From NCBI GenBank assembly GCA_902512585.1, contig CABXJW010000007.1, positions 1 to 45,581 of the forward strand: a DNA stretch of 45,581 bases, given 5' to 3'. The position numbers and the translations under genes are program-made. The notes beneath the pieces were generated by a model. It saw only the letters and a list, made by a program, of their open reading frames with translations, did no database searches and was not told the DNA's origin. Source of the DNA: an uncultured Woeseiaceae bacterium. Its GTDB lineage: Bacteria > Pseudomonadota > Gammaproteobacteria > Steroidobacterales > Woeseiaceae. Positions 11,083 to 45,581 of the stretch are shown here, one piece after another (position 1 is the first letter of the stretch; each line of letters begins with the position of its first letter).

Positions 11083-12156
11083 ATGACTGATCGTCAGAAC
11101 AGATTTGAGGGCACAAAAGAAGTTATTGAGGCCCATAAGTTGGATTTGCATCGTTTGAATGAGTTTCTTTGCGCTTTTTTATCAGATTATGAGGGGCCTC
11201 TTGAGATAAAGCAGTTTAAAGGTGGTCAATCTAATCCTACTTATTTATTAGAAACACCAGTAAAAAAATATGTCTTGAGAAAAAAGCCTCCTGGTAATTT
11301 ACTTAAATCTGCACATGCGGTTGATCGTGAGTATCGTGTAATCTCTGCATTAAATCAAATGGGATTTCCTGTACCAGAACCATATTTATTTTGTGAGGAT
11401 AATGACATTATCGGCACTGAGTTTTATTTGATGGAGTATGTAGAAGGACGTATATTTTGGGATCTTGATTTGCCACAGATTAGTTATGATGAGAGAGAAG
11501 CTGTGTATGATGATCTTAATAAGGTTTTAGCAAAACTTCATAATTATGATCATAAATCACTTGGCTTATCAGATTTTGGTCCAGCTGGTAATTATTTTAG
11601 TCGTCAAGTTTCACGTTGGTCGAAGCAATATAGAGCATCTGAAACCCAGACTATCCCTGAGATGGATTATTTAATTTCATGGTTACCTGAGAATATTCCA
11701 ATAGAGAACTCAGTCGCTATTGTTCATGGTGATTATCGTTTAGATAATTTAATAATTCATCCAACCGAACCAAAAATAATTGGAGTACTGGATTGGGAAT
11801 TGTCAACTATTGGAAATCCTCTGGGAGACTTCACATATAATCTATTGGCATGGCAGATGCCTGATATAGGAATTGGTGCTGCTGGTTTATATGGAAGTGA
11901 TCTCGGAAAATTGGGTATACCTGATGAAGAAAAATATATTGAATTATACTGTGAAAGAACAGGTAGATCCAAAGGGTTGCCTGATCGCGAATTTTATTCT
12001 GCTTATAATTTTTTTCGCATTGCAGCAATTTTACAAGGCATTGCTGGCAGGATAAGAGACGGTACAGCAGCTAGTTCAGAGGCGATGAAGATTGTAAAGG
12101 CAGTTGAACCATTGGCAAAAGTAGGTGCCAGTTATGCCACAAAAGAAAGGGCATAA
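11083..12156 (+). CDS. APH-family phosphotransferase, ACAD10/11-N-terminal / LvaA-like (putative hydroxyacyl-CoA kinase)
   Basis: KQFKGGQSNPTYLLET, YVLRKKPPGNLLKSAHAVDREYRVI, VHGDYRLDNLIIHPTEPKIIGVLDWELSTIGNPLGDFTY. Confidence 0.88.
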   Translation: MTDRQNRFEGTKEVIEAHKLDLHRLNEFLCAFLSDYEGPLEIKQFKGGQSNPTYLLETPVKKYVLRKKPPGNLLKSAHAVDREYRVISALNQMGFPVPEPYLFCEDNDIIGTEFYLMEYVEGRIFWDLDLPQISYDEREAVYDDLNKVLAKLHNYDHKSLGLSDFGPAGNYFSRQVSRWSKQYRASETQTIPEMDYLISWLPENIPIENSVAIVHGDYRLDNLIIHPTEPKIIGVLDWELSTIGNPLGDFTYNLLAWQMPDIGIGAAGLYGSDLGKLGIPDEEKYIELYCERTGRSKGLPDREFYSAYNFFRIAAILQGIAGRIRDGTAASSEAMKIVKAVEPLAKVGASYATKERA

Positions 12157-37027: not shown

Positions 37028-37747
37028 ATGAAGATATTTAGAAATTTAAAAAGACACTCTTTATTCTGGCCAGTTAAATTATTTTTAAAGAGATTGGTAG
37101 GTCGAGAGCTATGGCTGCAAAAAGAATTAGAGTTAAAAACCAAGATATTGGGTGAGTGGGAATTCTATCCTGATGAATTCAAAGCTAATGGAATTGTATA
37201 CTCACTTGGCGTTGGCGATTGTCTTGATTTTGATCTTCAGCTCATCGAGAGTCATGATGCAGTAGTATTTGCATTTGACCCAACGCCTTATTCAGTAGAG
37301 TGGGTTGAAAGGCAAGTAATTCCTGAAAATTTAAATTTTTTACCTTGGGCGGTGGCTGGAAGTGATGGAGAGCTCACTATGGCACAACGAGTGAATAAAA
37401 GAGGACGTAAGTCAGAAATTATGTGGACTGAAGTCTCAACCAACATTGAATCTAGCGAAGTTATACAAGTTCCAGCTTATACTATTGCGACAATTATGAG
37501 GAAATTACAACATAAAAAAATAGATCTGATGAAAATTGACGTTGAGGGTTCTGAGTACGAAATTGTTGAAGATATGATAAGAAGTCAGATTAAACCCCAG
37601 CAATTATTGATTGAATTCCATCATCGTTTTAAAAATAAAAGTAAAATAATGACAATTAATGCAATAAAGCATTTACAAGAAAATGGCTATAAAATCTTTT
37701 CAATCTCGGAAACTGGAAGAGAAGTGGGATTTATTCATACGGAATAA
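37028..37747 (+). CDS. FkbM family methyltransferase (second, divergent)
   Basis: VYSLGVGDCLDFDLQLIESHDAVVFAFDPTP; IDLMKIDVEGSEYEIVEDMI. Confidence 0.88.
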   Translation: MKIFRNLKRHSLFWPVKLFLKRLVGRELWLQKELELKTKILGEWEFYPDEFKANGIVYSLGVGDCLDFDLQLIESHDAVVFAFDPTPYSVEWVERQVIPENLNFLPWAVAGSDGELTMAQRVNKRGRKSEIMWTEVSTNIESSEVIQVPAYTIATIMRKLQHKKIDLMKIDVEGSEYEIVEDMIRSQIKPQQLLIEFHHRFKNKSKIMTINAIKHLQENGYKIFSISETGREVGFIHTE

Positions 37748-37912: not shown

Positions 37913-37926
37913 TGCATAAATATTCA
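37913..37926 (+). promoter_or_regulatory. Candidate ARG box (ArgR operator) 1
   Basis: TGCATAAATATTCA matches the half-site pattern TGNATWWWWATNCA exactly, 50 nt upstream of argR. Confidence 0.65.
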
Positions 37927-37943
37927 TATATATATATTATATG

Positions 37944-37957
37944 CGCATATTTATTCA
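37944..37957 (+). promoter_or_regulatory. Candidate ARG box (ArgR operator) 2
   Basis: CGCATATTTATTCA, one mismatch to TGNATWWWWATNCA; centre 31 bp from box 1. Confidence 0.5.
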
Positions 37958-37975: not shown

Positions 37976-38419
37976 ATGAGTATTCAAGAGTATCGACAAC
38001 AAGCAATACGCGAGTTATTGCAAAGTGGTTTTGCTGCAACACAGAAATCTTTGGTTGATGAGCTGAAGAATAGAGGCTATGAAGCAACGCAATCGTCAGT
38101 TAGTCGTGATTTAAAAGATATTGGTGCCTTTAAAACTGTTGACGGCTATACAATGGAGTTTGAAAGAGAGAGTGATTCGGAAGATATATATAATATCTCA
38201 CATTTGATTACCAGTGTGGCAACTGCAGGTCCAAATTTAATGGTTATTAGGACTAAAATTGGAGCCGCACAACAAGTAGCATTATTCTTGGATAAATATT
38301 CTAACTCTGGAATTGTTGGCAATATTGGTGGTGATGATACAGTTTTTACCGCTACTTCTGATAAAGCTCATCAACGAATCTTGGGCGATAAAATTAATCA
38401 TTTGATTAGTCGCTCTTAA
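37976..38419 (+). CDS. argR: Arginine repressor
   Basis: QKSLVDELKNRGYEATQSSVSRDLKDIGAFK; AQQVALFLDKYSNSGIVGNIGGDDTVF. Confidence 0.93.
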   Translation: MSIQEYRQQAIRELLQSGFAATQKSLVDELKNRGYEATQSSVSRDLKDIGAFKTVDGYTMEFERESDSEDIYNISHLITSVATAGPNLMVIRTKIGAAQQVALFLDKYSNSGIVGNIGGDDTVFTATSDKAHQRILGDKINHLISRS

Positions 38420-38435: not shown

Positions 38436-39644
38436 ATGAGTACTAGTAATTCACCCATTGTTATTGCCTATTCTGGTGGTCTGGATACTAGTTTTTGTAT
38501 ACCTTGGTTGAAAAATAATTTAAAAAAAGAAGTAATTACAGTTACTATTGATACCGGTGGTATTGATAATAAAGATGCTGGTTTATTGGAAAACCGAGCA
38601 CTTAAGTTAGGCGCGATTGAGCATCATTTGATCGATGCTAAAGATGAATTTTTTGATAGAGTTATTAAATATCTAATTGCAGGAAACATAAGAAAAGGAC
38701 ATCTTTACCCTATATGCGTGGGTGCTGAAAGAGGGCTTCAAGCAGAGAAATTAGCTGCTTATGCTAGGGATAATAATTTAGATACAGTTGCTCATGGTTG
38801 CACTGCAGCAGGTAATGATCAAGTTAGATTCGATGTTGCTTTACGAACAATTAACCCTAAATTAACTATTCTGGCTCCAATAAGGGACAATAATTGGTCA
38901 AGAGAAGAGCAACAACTTTTCCTTAATGATTATAGTGATGTACTGGCTAGCAAGAATAGTGATTATTCACATAATCGGGGTTTATGGGGTATTACTGTTG
39001 GCGGTAATGAGACATTAACGTCACTGTCATCAATTCCAGAGGAGGTATGGCCATTATCAGCACATGCTCATACAACAAACTTACCACCAACTAATTATGT
39101 AATAAGATTTAAAAATGGTGTACCCGTCTCTCTTGATGGCACACATTATAGTCCCGTTAAATTGATTGAAAAATTAGAAGAAATTGGCAGTTCTTACGCT
39201 ATAGGAAGAGGGATTCATCTAGGTGACACTATAATTGGGACAAAAGGTCGTGTTGCTTTCGAAGCACCTGCGGCAAGTATACTCATTAAAACTCATCGTG
39301 AACTTGAGAAATTAGTATTAACTGCTCAACAAATAAAAACAAAAGATCTTCTTGCCTCAATATATGGTGATTTTATTCATGAGGGTAAACAACTTGATTT
39401 GGCGGCTCGTGATATTGAAGCATTTTTTGTATCCACACAAAAAAGAGTATCTGGAGATGTTAAATTTACATTAAGGCCAGGAAGTGTGTTTATAGATGGA
39501 GTAGATTCATGTTATTCATTGATGACAGCATCATCCGGATTATATGGAGAGAAAACTGGAGAATGGTCTGGGGAAGATGCAAAAGGTTTCTCCAAAATTC
39601 TCTCCTTACCTGGCTCCTTGCAGTCTATAGCAGGAAAACAGTAA
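38436..39644 (+). CDS. argG: Argininosuccinate synthase
   Basis: PIVIAYSGGLDTSFCIPWL; AHGCTAAGNDQVRFD; HNRGLWGITVGGNETL. Confidence 0.96.
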   Translation: MSTSNSPIVIAYSGGLDTSFCIPWLKNNLKKEVITVTIDTGGIDNKDAGLLENRALKLGAIEHHLIDAKDEFFDRVIKYLIAGNIRKGHLYPICVGAERGLQAEKLAAYARDNNLDTVAHGCTAAGNDQVRFDVALRTINPKLTILAPIRDNNWSREEQQLFLNDYSDVLASKNSDYSHNRGLWGITVGGNETLTSLSSIPEEVWPLSAHAHTTNLPPTNYVIRFKNGVPVSLDGTHYSPVKLIEKLEEIGSSYAIGRGIHLGDTIIGTKGRVAFEAPAASILIKTHRELEKLVLTAQQIKTKDLLASIYGDFIHEGKQLDLAARDIEAFFVSTQKRVSGDVKFTLRPGSVFIDGVDSCYSLMTASSGLYGEKTGEWSGEDAKGFSKILSLPGSLQSIAGKQ

Positions 39645-39659
39645 TCATTTTTTTATATT

Positions 39660-40733
39660 ATGAAAACTATATTTGCAGATAAAGTAGCCTCGGTAGCACA
39701 ACATAATAATTTGGGTTACGAGCTAAGGGTATCCGGTGATATACCATGCAATGAGGGAGTATTGATTGCTGTAAAGATTCTAAATAATAAGTCTCGTTAC
39801 AATCAATTAGAGTTAATAAGCGGCAGGATGTCGACCTTGAAAGAAGGCGATATTGTTGTTGGCGCACTGGGTCATAGGGATGCCTTACTTGGCTATTCTG
39901 GGTATTTACCGGAAAATCTTGAAGTTGGATCTCTAATACAAGTACTAAATATGGGTGGAGTTATGGGTATTTGTGATTCTTATAATCCAGATGTCGGCCC
40001 CCCATTCGATTGCGAAGTTCTTGGTGTGGTTTTGGAGTTTCCTTATCTTGGTCAAAGAGTTGGTTTGCCTGCCAGAGCTGGTGGATTTAGTTTTGAGCAA
40101 TCAATAAAATTAAATTTTTCAGGTATCCCGGTCATTGCTATTGCTGGAACCTGTATGGATTCTGGTAAAACTGTAGCGGCTTCCTCTTTAATTAGTAAAT
40201 TAAGGCAATTAAATCTTAATATAGCTGCCTGCAAAGCTACCGGAGTTTCTCTCAGAAGAGATATTTTATCTATGGAGGATGCTGGAGCTAAAACAACGAT
40301 GATATTTTCAGATTTCGGAGTAGTGGCCACTACTCCTTATAACGGCCCATCACTGACGAAGTCATTATTGAATCAACTTGCATCAGAGCTTCCAGACATA
40401 ATTATTATTGAGTTGGGTGATGGCCTATTAGGATCTTATGGAGTTCAAGCAATCCTTTCTGACCAAGAAATAAAAAATGCTCTTAGTGGTCTAATTTTAT
40501 GTGCAAATGACCCAGTTGCTGCTTGGGGAGGGGTAAAAATACTCAGAGAAAACTATGAAATTGAACCTACTGTGGTTAGTGGACCTGCAACAGATAATTC
40601 AGTTGGATTGGATATGATTAATAATACGCTAAAGGTTCCTGCCATTAATGCGCTCACAAATAGCTCAGCATTGAGTGAATTGATCACGGGTTCTATTTTT
40701 CCAAATAATTTTGAGGTGAAGCATGAGAATTAA
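39660..40733 (+). CDS. Uncharacterised P-loop NTPase-like protein in arginine operon
   Basis: IPVIAIAGTCMDSGKTVAASSLISKLRQL (Walker A-like), DIIIIELGDGLLGSYGVQAIL; overlaps argC start by 11 nt. Confidence 0.85.
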   Translation: MKTIFADKVASVAQHNNLGYELRVSGDIPCNEGVLIAVKILNNKSRYNQLELISGRMSTLKEGDIVVGALGHRDALLGYSGYLPENLEVGSLIQVLNMGGVMGICDSYNPDVGPPFDCEVLGVVLEFPYLGQRVGLPARAGGFSFEQSIKLNFSGIPVIAIAGTCMDSGKTVAASSLISKLRQLNLNIAACKATGVSLRRDILSMEDAGAKTTMIFSDFGVVATTPYNGPSLTKSLLNQLASELPDIIIIELGDGLLGSYGVQAILSDQEIKNALSGLILCANDPVAAWGGVKILRENYEIEPTVVSGPATDNSVGLDMINNTLKVPAINALTNSSALSELITGSIFPNNFEVKHEN

Positions 40734-41778
40734 AACTATTATTATGGGTGCTTCTGGTTATGTAGGTGGTGAGTTACTCAGATTATTAAAAAATCATCCG
40801 AATCTTGATTATGTAATTGCGGTATCAGAATCGCATGCTGGTGAAAATATAAACACTATTTTTCCGCATCTGACTCATTCTTATCAGGATGAAAAATTTA
40901 AGACTTATGAAAATTGGAGTATTGATATTGATCATGGGGATCCAGTAGCTATCTTTAGTGCCGCGCCACATGGTATTTCAGCAGGGATATTAACAAGCAT
41001 ACTTGAGACATTAGCAATAAAAAATATCAAGCCAAAGGTAGTCGATATTTCTGCAGATTTTCGATTTTCTGACCCAGAAATCTTTTACCGAACCTATGGT
41101 ATAAAACACTTACATGCCGAGTTACTTAGTCAGTTTATATGTGGCATTCCTGAGCATATCATTAAGACTGAATCAAATTTTATTGCACATCCAGGTTGCT
41201 TTGCCACTGCTATATTACTAGCTATAACGCCAATTATTATAAATGATATAACAGATAATGAATTCTATATCAGTGCCATTACTGGCAGTACTGGATCGGG
41301 TAGATCACCAAAGAAAACAACTCATCATCCTGAGCGTCACAGTAATGTATTTGCGTATAAACCGCTCTCTCATAGACATGCTCCAGAGATAGTAAGTATA
41401 TGTGAAAATATAACTACTGTTAAACCGAAAATTAACTTTATACCTCATTCAGGACCTTTTTCACGCGGCATATATGCAACAATCCAGGCAAAATTAAAAT
41501 CAGATAAACACATTGATGATGCCGCTCCAATTTTTAAGAACCATTATTCTGAATCTAAATTTATCACTTACATGGATGATACTCCTCAATTAAAGAATGT
41601 GGTGACCAGTAATTTCTGTCATCTCAGCTCCAGTATAGATAATGATCAAATAGTCATAAATTGTGCAATTGATAATTTAATAAAAGGTTCAGCAGGTGGA
41701 TCAATCCAATGGATGAATAGACTTTGGGAGCTTCCTGAAGAAACTGGATTAATGACAATAACCTCACCATGGATATAA
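40723..41778 (+). CDS. argC: N-acetyl-gamma-glutamyl-phosphate reductase (or N-acyl equivalent)
   Basis: IIMGASGYVGGELLRLLKNHP; HPGCFATAILLA; TGSTGSGRSPKKTTHHPERHSNV. Confidence 0.95.
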   Translation: MRIKTIIMGASGYVGGELLRLLKNHPNLDYVIAVSESHAGENINTIFPHLTHSYQDEKFKTYENWSIDIDHGDPVAIFSAAPHGISAGILTSILETLAIKNIKPKVVDISADFRFSDPEIFYRTYGIKHLHAELLSQFICGIPEHIIKTESNFIAHPGCFATAILLAITPIIINDITDNEFYISAITGSTGSGRSPKKTTHHPERHSNVFAYKPLSHRHAPEIVSICENITTVKPKINFIPHSGPFSRGIYATIQAKLKSDKHIDDAAPIFKNHYSESKFITYMDDTPQLKNVVTSNFCHLSSSIDNDQIVINCAIDNLIKGSAGGSIQWMNRLWELPEETGLMTITSPWI

Positions 41779-41781
41779 CTG

Positions 41782-42963
41782 ATGCCAAATGAATTTATAC
41801 ATGATTCAAAGCAAGATGTTCGGAGAGCAGGGCAGGAAGTTTTATTAGATGTATATAAACAATTATCTTTGACAGTCACTAGAGCTGATAATTGTGAATT
41901 ATTAACTAATGATAACCGAAAGATTCTGGATCTTTATGGAGGCCATGCAGTAATGCCTCTTGGTTATGGCGACACTGACTTTTTGAGTTCAGTGCAAGAA
42001 CAAATGACTAATTTACTCTTCCAGAGTAACCTGTTACCACTTGATATTAGGGTCCAAGCAGCTGAGAATCTTTTGAAAATCGCTCCATCAAGTTTATCAA
42101 AGGTATTTTTTGTTAATTCTGGGTCTGAGGCAAATGAGAATGCCTTGAAAATTGCCTGTATGTATACCAAGAGAAAAAAAATACTGGCCGTCACAGGAGC
42201 ATTTCATGGTCGATCGGCCGCCGCTTCTGCAGTTACATGGAATGCAAAAAAGAGCTGGTACGGATTTCCAAGACTACCTTTTGATGTTGATTTTATTCCT
42301 CGTGATGACCTGAATGCAGCACGCGATATGATAAATGATGAAGTAGCAGCTGTAATCGTAGAGCCAATTCAGGGTGTGGCAGGTGCCTATGATCTATCCC
42401 ATGAGTTTGTGATGGCTTTGAGAAAGGGATGCGATAAAGTTTCAGCAATATTAATAGTTGATGAAGTACAAACTGGGATGGGGCGAAGTGGTAATTACTT
42501 TGCAATTCAAAATTATAATATAGAACCAGATATATTAACGATGGCAAAATCATTAGGTGGAGGAGTTCCCTGTGCAGCCTTGATGATCAATCAAAAATAT
42601 TCATCAAACCTTAAGATGGGCGATTTAGGATCAACATTTGGTGGCGGACCAATTGCATGTGCTGCGATTAATGCTGTAATCAAAAGTATCAAGAAAAATA
42701 ACTTATTACTTAACGTGAAAGAATTAGAAATCAAGATAAGAGAGACGTGTCAAGTGGGCCCAATTCAAAGAATCCAAGGAAAAGGATTTTTATTAGGATT
42801 AATTTGTGATCGACCAGCACATGAGATTCAGAGCAAATTGCTCAAAAAAGATATATTGACAGGAACCAGTGCTGAAAAAAATATACTCAGGTTATTACCA
42901 CCTTTGGTTTTGCAAACGAATCATGTGAATAGATTAAGCGAAGCTTTGGCCTCGATTAAATAA
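41782..42963 (+). CDS. argD: Acyl-ornithine aminotransferase
   Basis: FVNSGSEANENALKIA; GAFHGRSAAASAVT; LIVDEVQTGMGRSG; MAKSLGGGVPCAALM. Confidence 0.94.
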   Translation: MPNEFIHDSKQDVRRAGQEVLLDVYKQLSLTVTRADNCELLTNDNRKILDLYGGHAVMPLGYGDTDFLSSVQEQMTNLLFQSNLLPLDIRVQAAENLLKIAPSSLSKVFFVNSGSEANENALKIACMYTKRKKILAVTGAFHGRSAAASAVTWNAKKSWYGFPRLPFDVDFIPRDDLNAARDMINDEVAAVIVEPIQGVAGAYDLSHEFVMALRKGCDKVSAILIVDEVQTGMGRSGNYFAIQNYNIEPDILTMAKSLGGGVPCAALMINQKYSSNLKMGDLGSTFGGGPIACAAINAVIKSIKKNNLLLNVKELEIKIRETCQVGPIQRIQGKGFLLGLICDRPAHEIQSKLLKKDILTGTSAEKNILRLLPPLVLQTNHVNRLSEALASIK

Positions 42964-42986: not shown

Positions 42987-43985
42987 ATGCATATATTCAA
43001 TGATCTAACTGATTTTAGTAATGATGAAATAGGGAGTTTATTGGAGCTCGCTAATCAATTAGATAATTATCCAGAGCCAGATATTTTAAAAGGTAAGGTT
43101 CTGGCGTTATTATTTTTTAATTCTTCTTTAAGAACTCTCACATCATTTCAAGCAGCCATGTCTAGATTGGGTGGGGGGACATTTGTTGTATCACCCGATA
43201 TGTCAATACATGGATTAGAAACACAGACAGGTATAGTAATGGATGGGAATGCTGCTGAACACATCAATGAGGCCATACCTGTTATTGAGTCTTATGCTGA
43301 TGTAATAGGAATTAGGGCATTTGCCCAAAGAAGAAATCTTAAAGAAGATTTAGAAGATTTTAGTTTTAAAAATTTAATAAATCTCACCAGTAAGCCATTT
43401 ATCAATATGGAATCTGCTATAAATCATCCATGCCAGAATCTTGCAGATTGGAAAACTTTAGATGATTTTGATATTCCAAAAAAAGATGGAAAATTTGTAC
43501 TAAGTTGGGCTTATCATCCTAACCCTCTGCCATTGGCTGTTCCAGCATCAACACTTAATATGGCTGCAATGCGAGGTATGAACGTAACTGTATTAAGACC
43601 AGATAATTTTGAGTTACCAGATTCGGTTATGGAAAAAGCTAAACAAATTGCAACTGTATCAGGAGGCTCAATAACGGAAACAGATAATCATAATGAAGCC
43701 TTACAGGACGCTCATGTTATTTATGCAAAATCATGGACATCATCAAAATATTACAAAGAAAGAGATTTGGAGTATGAGGCACGTAAAGATTTAATTGAGT
43801 GGCGGGTAAAAGATTCTTGGTTTAATAATGTACTGCCTTCATGTCGATTCATGCATTGTTTGCCGGTTAGAAGAGGTGTTGTGGTAGATGACTCAGTTTT
43901 AGATAGCTCAAGAAGTATTGTTATTCATGAGGCACGTAATCGTATGCTGGCTCAAATGGCAGTGTTGTACAAAATGTTGAAATAA
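42987..43985 (+). CDS. argF': N-acyl-ornithine carbamoyltransferase (N-acetyl/N-succinyl-ornithine type)
   Basis: FFNSSLRTLTSFQAAM; GIVMDGNAAEHINEAIPVIESYADVIGIRAFAQ; INHPCQNLADW; LSWAYHPNPLPLAVPAS; MHCLPVRRG: the AOTC/SOTC family rather than canonical OTCase. Confidence 0.92.
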   Translation: MHIFNDLTDFSNDEIGSLLELANQLDNYPEPDILKGKVLALLFFNSSLRTLTSFQAAMSRLGGGTFVVSPDMSIHGLETQTGIVMDGNAAEHINEAIPVIESYADVIGIRAFAQRRNLKEDLEDFSFKNLINLTSKPFINMESAINHPCQNLADWKTLDDFDIPKKDGKFVLSWAYHPNPLPLAVPASTLNMAAMRGMNVTVLRPDNFELPDSVMEKAKQIATVSGGSITETDNHNEALQDAHVIYAKSWTSSKYYKERDLEYEARKDLIEWRVKDSWFNNVLPSCRFMHCLPVRRGVVVDDSVLDSSRSIVIHEARNRMLAQMAVLYKMLK

Positions 43986-43997
43986 TAAGGAATTAAG

Positions 43998-44924
43998 ATG
44001 CAAAAAAATAAATCATCAATAATTGCTGCACTTAAATATGCTATTCCATATATCAGATTATTTAAAAATAAAATTTTTGTTATCAAAGCAAGTGGCTCCT
44101 TATTTTTAGATGAAAAATTAATCGAGAAGTTGATAGAGCAATTAAGTATTCTGCAACAATTAGGAATTAAGATTATATTGATACACGGTGGCGGACCTCA
44201 ATCTTCAGAAATGGCTGCATCTCTGGGTATTAAGTCAAAATTTATTGAGGGAAGGAGGGTGACTGATTCAAAAATGATTGATGTAACTACTATGGTTCTT
44301 AATGGAAAGATTAATACTAAAATATTGGCGATTGCTAGAAAATATAATATGAAAGCTATTGGTATGAGTGGTATTGATTCAGGATTAATTAGAGCACATC
44401 GTCGTGAAGTTACTCATGATAAGAATAACAAATCGATTGATTATGGTTTTGTTGGGGATATTGACTCAATTAATCCTGAACTAATTTTTAAACAATTGGA
44501 CGATGGATTTATTCCAATAATTAGTCCTCTTGCTTGTGATGATAGTGGCATTATTTTAAATATAAATGCTGATACAGTTGCAGCGTCGATTGCTGCAGAA
44601 ATAAGTGCTGAAAAGTTAATTTTAATATCTTCAGCACCGGGCATACTTGAAGATAGTAGTGATAACTCTAGCTTAATTTCATACTTAGATATTGAAAAGT
44701 TAGAAAGGCTAATTCTCGAAAAGCAAATAACTGATGGTATGCTGCCTAAATCTTCAGCAATTAAGTTCGCAATTGAAAAAGGTGTAGAGCGAGTACATGT
44801 TATCTCTTATAGAACAACTGACTCATTACTCATAGAGATGTTTACTAATGATGGAACGGGTACATTGGTTGTAAGTGATATAGAAATGTTATCATCTTTA
44901 GAGCAACTGGGAGGTCAGCTTTGA
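43998..44924 (+). CDS. argB: Acetylglutamate kinase (N-acyl-glutamate kinase)
   Basis: KIILIHGGGPQSSEMAASLGIKSKFIEGRRVTD; IISPLACDDSGIILNINADTVAASIAAEI. Confidence 0.93.
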   Translation: MQKNKSSIIAALKYAIPYIRLFKNKIFVIKASGSLFLDEKLIEKLIEQLSILQQLGIKIILIHGGGPQSSEMAASLGIKSKFIEGRRVTDSKMIDVTTMVLNGKINTKILAIARKYNMKAIGMSGIDSGLIRAHRREVTHDKNNKSIDYGFVGDIDSINPELIFKQLDDGFIPIISPLACDDSGIILNINADTVAASIAAEISAEKLILISSAPGILEDSSDNSSLISYLDIEKLERLILEKQITDGMLPKSSAIKFAIEKGVERVHVISYRTTDSLLIEMFTNDGTGTLVVSDIEMLSSLEQLGGQL

Positions 44925-45581
44925 GTCGATTATGGGAAAAAGGATTACCATTAGACGAACGAGTACTAAAGTATACGGCGGGTGAGGACCATAAGCTCGA
45001 TGAGAGACTCGTAATATATGATGTTCGAGCGAGTATTGCCCATGCTGAAATGTTATCGAGCGTCAATTTATTAACTAATGAGGATTGTTCAAAGATAACT
45101 AATGGCCTTGAGCAGTTATTACATGATTTTGAAAATGGTAAGTGGACAATTACTCTTCAAGATGAAGACGTCCATACAGCTCTGGAAGTTAATTTAACAA
45201 GATTAATCGGAGAGGTTGGTGGTAAAATTCATTTGGGTCGATCGAGAAATGACCAAGTGCTAGTGGCATTAAGGTTGTACATGCTTGATGCCATAGATAT
45301 CGTTTCCCACGGTATCGAGGGTCTCTGTGAGGCGCTCAATTTACTGAAATTGCGTCAAGGTGAGATAACACTTCCAGGAACAACGCATATGCAACATGCT
45401 ATGCCTTCATCTGTTGCACTATGGAGCGAAGCTTTCATTGAAGGCTTCGAGGATATTAAGGAAGGAATTGGAAATGCCAAAATAAGATCAAATAAGAATC
45501 CTCTGGGTAGTGCAGCCGGATATGGTACTCCTGGGCTTCCAATAGATAGAGCCATAACCACAGAAAAACTTGGATTTGAAG
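44921..45581 (+). CDS. argH: Argininosuccinate lyase, N-terminal part (runs off window end)
   Basis: Manual translation from TTG 44921: SRLWEKGLPLDERVLKYTAGEDHKLDERLVIYDVRASIAHAEML...DEDVHTALEVNLTRLIGEVGGKIHLGRSRNDQVLVALRLYM...LPGTTHMQHAMP; not in supplied ORF track. Confidence 0.93.
   Translation, partial: MSRLWEKGLPLDERVLKYTAGEDHKLDERLVIYDVRASIAHAEMLSSVNLLTNEDCSKITNGLEQLLHDFENGKWTITLQDEDVHTALEVNLTRLIGEVGGKIHLGRSRNDQVLVALRLYMLDAIDIVSHGIEGLCEALNLLKLRQGEITLPGTTHMQHAMPSSVALWSEAFIEGFEDIKEGIGNAKIRSNKNPLGSAAGYGTPGLPIDRAITTEKLGFE

Follow-up and report, generated by a model that had tools for sequence, protein, structure and literature searches.

The window analyzed here is a 45,581-nucleotide stretch of DNA from an uncultured Woeseiaceae bacterium, and it ends in an arginine biosynthesis operon with the order argR-argG-X-argC-argD-transcarbamylase-argB-argH. 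All of the genes are on the plus strand, and they almost abut. The arginine repressor gene argR (37976..38419; PF01316/PF02863 above cut-off) is followed by argG for argininosuccinate synthase (38436..39644; TIGR00032 above cut-off) and by a gene for a 357-aa protein, here called X, with the Walker A motif GTCMDSGKT (39660..40733). The next genes are argC, encoding N-acyl-gamma-glutamyl-phosphate reductase (40723..41778; TIGR01850 above cut-off), and argD, encoding N-acylornithine aminotransferase (41782..42963; PF00202 above cut-off, TIGR00707 at 329 bits and below its cut-off of 410). Both are ordinary ArgC and ArgD families, which are uninformative on the acyl group. The transcarbamylase gene (42987..43985, 332 aa) precedes argB, which encodes an N-acylglutamate kinase without NAGS domain (43998..44924; TIGR00761 above cut-off, with no PF04768 match in the genome). 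The argininosuccinate lyase gene argH (44921..45581; TIGR00838, partial) is cut by the contig end at 45581. X is the sole unassigned gene of the operon, and the operon has no acyl-glutamate synthase.

The closest named loci to this operon are from Woeseiaceae MAGs. The complete argR-to-argH order is present in 62 of the 80 nearest loci, most of the others being shortened, and X adjoins arg genes in all 80. Two ARG-box-like palindromes lie 5' of argR on the plus strand (37913-37926 and 37944-37957). The palindromes in the window alone are not above chance; sites of this kind with three or fewer mismatches occur in 52 of 102 argR upstream regions, compared to about 12% of shuffles. An FkbM-family methyltransferase is encoded directly upstream of the arg operon (37028-37747), and an APH-family phosphotransferase (PF01636) is encoded at 11083-12156 within a co-directional gene run.

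Transcarbamylases acting on N-acetylornithine (AOTC) and N-succinylornithine (SOTC) are told apart by three residues: AOTC has Glu92, Asn185, and Lys302, and SOTC has A, S, P, V, or Q at the first position, P at the second, and V, I, or E at the third (PMC4581275, a review by the discoverers of the enzymes). The work of Shi 2007 and Yu 2023 is used here as relayed by PMC4581275, PMC7311316, and PMC12363236. The product of the 42987-43985 reading frame matches NF003384 (N-acetylornithine carbamoyltransferase) with 327 bits (cut-off 288) and the structures of both Xanthomonas AOTC and Bacteroides SOTC, with the higher profile score to Xanthomonas AOTC. Its alignments identify it as a knotted AOTC/SOTC-type transcarbamylase, the family to which an earlier note on this DNA had assigned it from motifs. 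The top solved-structure match is 3l02 (199 bits), a chain that has Ala at the Glu92 position. In tool alignments, A90 (codon 43254-43256) is at the Glu92 position, P182 (43530-43532) at the Asn185 position, and V299 (43881-43883) at the Lys302 position. All three discriminators are therefore on the SOTC side, with none of AOTC's Glu92, Asn185, or Lys302. The hand alignment in the earlier note had placed Ala90 at the Glu92 position and Val in place of Lys302; the tool alignments agree, with no acidic residue at the former, and add P182, which that note did not include. Published mutagenesis, as cited in PMC7311316, links Ala at the Glu92 position to a preference for the succinyl substrate, as the note had stated. 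Across 71 sequences, consisting of the window and the operons of named relatives, Ala at 92 and Pro at 185 are invariant (71/71), and Val at 302 is found in 70, with one ambiguous letter. Judged from these sequences, the A/P/V signature of the window-type transcarbamylases is not due to chance. The signature supports the prediction of an N-succinylornithine-type carbamoyltransferase, and the gene is listed as argF' (predicted).

Distribution of X and of acetyl-pathway enzymes was compared in 60 genomes, the window's own and 59 relatives. A strong match to X (at least 597 bits) was found in 37 genomes, the same 37 that have the window operon type, and each of these encodes a close copy (at least 51% identical) of the window transcarbamylase. 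None of the 37 has NAGS-kinase (PF04768) or the deacylase NF006439. The NAT domain of the fused NAGS-kinase is present in 11 of the 60 genomes, and the Xanthomonas-type deacylase NF006439 is in the same 11, all of which are without X. These 11 also carry a transcarbamylase copy, with approximately 37-41% identity to that of the window. X and NAGS never occur together in one genome (Fisher p = 4e-6, for genomes that are related, so that samples are not independent), and at genus level X in 19 and NAGS in 9 genera show zero overlap (Fisher p = 4e-6, again for related genomes). Classical ArgA above cut-off was found in none of the 60 genomes. ArgJ was likewise missing, except that one contig of G007 has a 75-aa fragment of it at its end. 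The lack of NAGS, ArgJ, and an acetyl-type deacylase supports the succinylated arginine pathway that the earlier note had implied. Twelve of the 60 genomes have neither X nor NAGS (G003, G006, G018, G026, G028, G030, G032, G034, G036, G044, G048, and G057); several are incomplete and some are more than 90% complete. They may be arginine auxotrophs or use a further route. At class level, X scores above 300 bits in 8 of 321 genomes, and all eight have a transcarbamylase of the window family.

The residue signature tracks the type of pathway. All transcarbamylases read from operons with X carry the SOTC signature, which in Woeseiales takes the form A92, P185, and V302 or A302. Transcarbamylases were read from 10 of the 11 NAGS-kinase operons, and all have E92/N185, as do those of three Xanthomonadaceae-like genomes; position 302 is K in both sets (Q once). 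Four of the eight class-level genomes with X (G098, G176, G291, and G344) are from outside Woeseiales and have the gene order argD-SOTC-argB-argH-argG-X-argC, with the arg genes of G291 split over two contigs. Their transcarbamylases have P92 or V92, P185, and E302. Because the linkage of X and SOTC is found in two gene orders, function is favored over inherited synteny. Genome G017 (L138 and L051) has no X and an acetyl-type arg operon, and elsewhere it has an orphan SOTC-like gene (A92/P185/E302) that looks like a remnant of a replaced pathway. In the transcarbamylase tree, B. fragilis SOTC joins the G098-type enzymes on a branch 2.67 long, a placement that we do not trust. Divergent transcarbamylase homologues are encoded at L144:7785-9071 (G040) and L145:5880-6932 (G051). 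They have lost the second-substrate Lys (252 equivalent) along with further active-site residues and have probably ceased to be AOTC or SOTC. Near the L144 gene are polA and a gene of the thioesterase family.

In SOTC, the succinyl group is anchored by H176, R178, and R278 (PMC4581275). The B. fragilis reference was 1js1 (W75, P90, H176, R178, and R278), with its full length checked against PDB. The window transcarbamylase keeps two of the anchoring residues as H177 and R295, and it has N179 (codon 43521-43523) at the Arg178 position. Among the 71 sequences this position is K in 40 and R in 21 (61/71 Lys or Arg); the others have N, M, L, or H. The SOTC Trp75 position is His in 70 of the 71, including the window (H75, codon 43209-43211), and Gln in one; His is the residue of most Woeseiales, and Trp is retained in the early-branching lineages L048-L050. 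Trp75, which AOTC and SOTC have in common, belongs to the 80's loop, located where the second substrate binds. Through the Trp75-to-His and Arg178-to-Asn changes, the pocket of the window enzyme differs from that of the solved SOTC. Because Trp75 lies outside the three discriminators, we name the window protein SOTC-type, which is short of calling it a proven SOTC. The earlier note was largely right, but it overlooked both changes as well as protein X of the operon. This difference in the pocket counts in favor of a pathway with acetyl (or other acyl) intermediates, in which A90/P182/V299 would be a feature of the lineage, as does the naming of DgcN, a distant profile relative of X, as an N-acetyltransferase. 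This reading is very unlikely in view of the mutagenesis at the Glu92 position, of the four distant genomes, which are SOTC-like at the same positions with other residues (P/V at 92 and E at 302), and of the lack of NF006439 in X genomes.

DgcN is a D-glutamate N-acetyltransferase (NF041892, DUF1611/PF07755), and it acts on glutamate, as is proposed for X too. Window X has no match above curated cut-off in Pfam and NCBIfam, including PF07755 and NF041892, and a weak DUF1611 match was obtained for X of 4 of 12 relatives. X has clear homology (HHalign 100%) to the proteins of a second family in Gammaproteobacteria, which are often encoded next to an M20 hydrolase. In Woeseiales, members of this second family occur at L146, L147, L148, L149, L150, L151, and L152, often beside the hydrolase; two members checked had no NCBIfam match, and Pfam DUF1611 matches are mostly weak. 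The family and the hydrolase are perhaps another N-acylation/deacylation pair. A combined profile of X and this paralogue matched DUF1611/DgcN with HHalign probabilities of 60-88%, varying with the direction of the comparison (E 3e-6 to 9e-5), a weak similarity confined to the P-loop domain. The X profile alone gave 2.8% against DUF1611, and six unrelated arg families used as controls gave 0.1-0.9%. Because of the low value for X alone, and because none of the controls is a P-loop protein, we treat the likeness to DgcN as a lead and not as proof. DgcN members in the comparison set were confirmed with NF041892 and their neighbor DgcA with NF042940. X and DgcN share a P-loop C-terminal domain and a similar motif order, but X is below the membership thresholds and has a different N-terminal region, and DgcN adjoins the racemase DgcA whereas X lies in arg operons. 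The AlphaFold model of X is of moderate quality (pLDDT 75.7, poor in the N-terminal part). A fold search with this model gave only generic P-loop NTPases of SIMIBI type, dethiobiotin synthetase being one of them, and no DUF1611 structure is named among the 50 matches listed. The open-licence papers searched on DUF1611 and DgcN, on the arginine genes of Woeseia, and on new families of NAGS do not mention X.

By context and exclusion, X is the best candidate for the succinyl-tagging enzyme. Its proposed reaction, like that of DgcN, acylates glutamate; the donor would most likely be succinyl-CoA and the product N-succinyl-L-glutamate. The main chemical alternative is that X ligates free succinate to glutamate by ATP-dependent acyl-phosphate chemistry like that of dethiobiotin synthetase, with no succinyl-CoA. 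Both profile and fold comparisons show a resemblance of the P-loop domain of X to dethiobiotin synthetase and MobB; however, these fold matches are common to P-loop NTPases generally, and DgcN, which NCBIfam names an N-acetyltransferase, is also a distant profile relative. We consider ligation unlikely and prefer succinyl-CoA transfer. It is quite unlikely that the transcarbamylase is succinyl-specific and the first step is catalyzed by an unlinked ArgA2/BT3761-like GNAT, with X doing something else, such as acting as a regulatory or metabolite-sensing NTPase. The candidate N-succinylglutamate synthase of Bacteroidetes is a GNAT protein, and the Walker A motif and predicted SIMIBI-type fold of X are also found in non-acyltransferases. 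However, X is in all complete arg operons of this kind that were compared, in two gene orders, and it is absent from all genomes with NAGS-kinase among the 60; mutual exclusion with NAGS would be unexpected of a regulator. Furthermore, a search for ArgA-type GNAT proteins in G004, G012, and G041 gave no match besides ArgB itself.

No deacylase is encoded within the arg operon. In G041 (98% complete), DapE scores well above its cut-off, and the one other M20 enzyme is a likely exported protein, with a probable signal peptide. AstE/AspA-type desuccinylase had no match in nine genomes, and AstE was not found in G041. Two genes 3' of argH were considered as deacylase candidates and rejected: a 414-aa gene in the genus, suspected of being an M20 deacylase, encodes an MFS transporter, and a gene of about 900 aa in relatives encodes DNA polymerase I. 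DapE takes off succinyl groups in lysine synthesis, and it is the most likely candidate for the desuccinylase of the arginine route. Because lysine synthesis requires DapE anyway, its presence is weak evidence for this second role.

Taken together, the operon probably serves arginine synthesis via N-succinyl intermediates, with X forming N-succinylglutamate and DapE probably removing the succinyl group; we infer the substrates of the enzymes, the reaction of X, and the second role of DapE. The succinyl route is backed by the SOTC residue signature, by the make-up and conservation of the operon, and by mutual exclusion with acetyl-pathway enzymes. After the step assigned to X, ArgB, ArgC, and ArgD would convert N-succinyl-L-glutamate to N-succinylornithine, and the 42987-43985 transcarbamylase would convert this to N-succinylcitrulline. 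A desuccinylase encoded outside the operon, most likely DapE, would then release citrulline, from which ArgG and ArgH would complete arginine.

The succinyl arginine pathway is known from Bacteroidetes, where the candidate for step one is the GNAT ArgA2/BT3761 (PMC7311316, PMC9026213). A 2015 review listed the glutamate-succinylating enzyme as unidentified (PMC4490483). Like the Bacteroides-type pathway (GapMind), the window system has a SOTC-signature transcarbamylase, ordinary ArgB, ArgC, and ArgD, and no ArgA or ArgJ. The two differ in the first-step candidate, a GNAT in Bacteroidetes and the unrelated P-loop protein X here, and in the desuccinylase, a separate M20 candidate (BT3549) in Bacteroidetes and the proposed DapE here. 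The window enzyme resembles B. fragilis SOTC (1js1/2fg6/2g7m) in its knotted fold type and proline-rich loop, in the small residue at Glu92, Pro at Asn185, and aliphatic residue at Lys302, and in keeping SOTC residues H176, R278, K236, and E142. In contrast to that enzyme, it is gammaproteobacterial, is closer by profile to AOTC, has His and Asn for Trp75 and Arg178, and is encoded in an operon with X. X. campestris AOTC (3kzc and mutants) represents its best family and structure match (NF003384), but the window enzyme differs from it at all three of E92, N185, and K302. AOTC operons carry a fused NAGS-kinase and an acetyl-type deacylase, and the window system is without both.

Woeseiales are common marine sediment bacteria. 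Comparative genomics places the predicted succinyl route in them and in some other Gammaproteobacteria; there, the NCBI family model labels the transcarbamylase N-acetylornithine carbamoyltransferase, and step one is without a named gene. Judging from the open-licence literature searched, the predicted succinyl route in these bacteria, with X as candidate for step one, is probably new. There is about an even chance that X represents a new P-loop family of glutamate N-succinyltransferases, unrelated to ArgA, ArgJ, and the GNAT ArgA2, and that Gammaproteobacteria have a second, independently assembled succinyl-arginine pathway that shares DapE with lysine synthesis. X is a concrete candidate for step one, unrelated to the Bacteroidetes GNAT.
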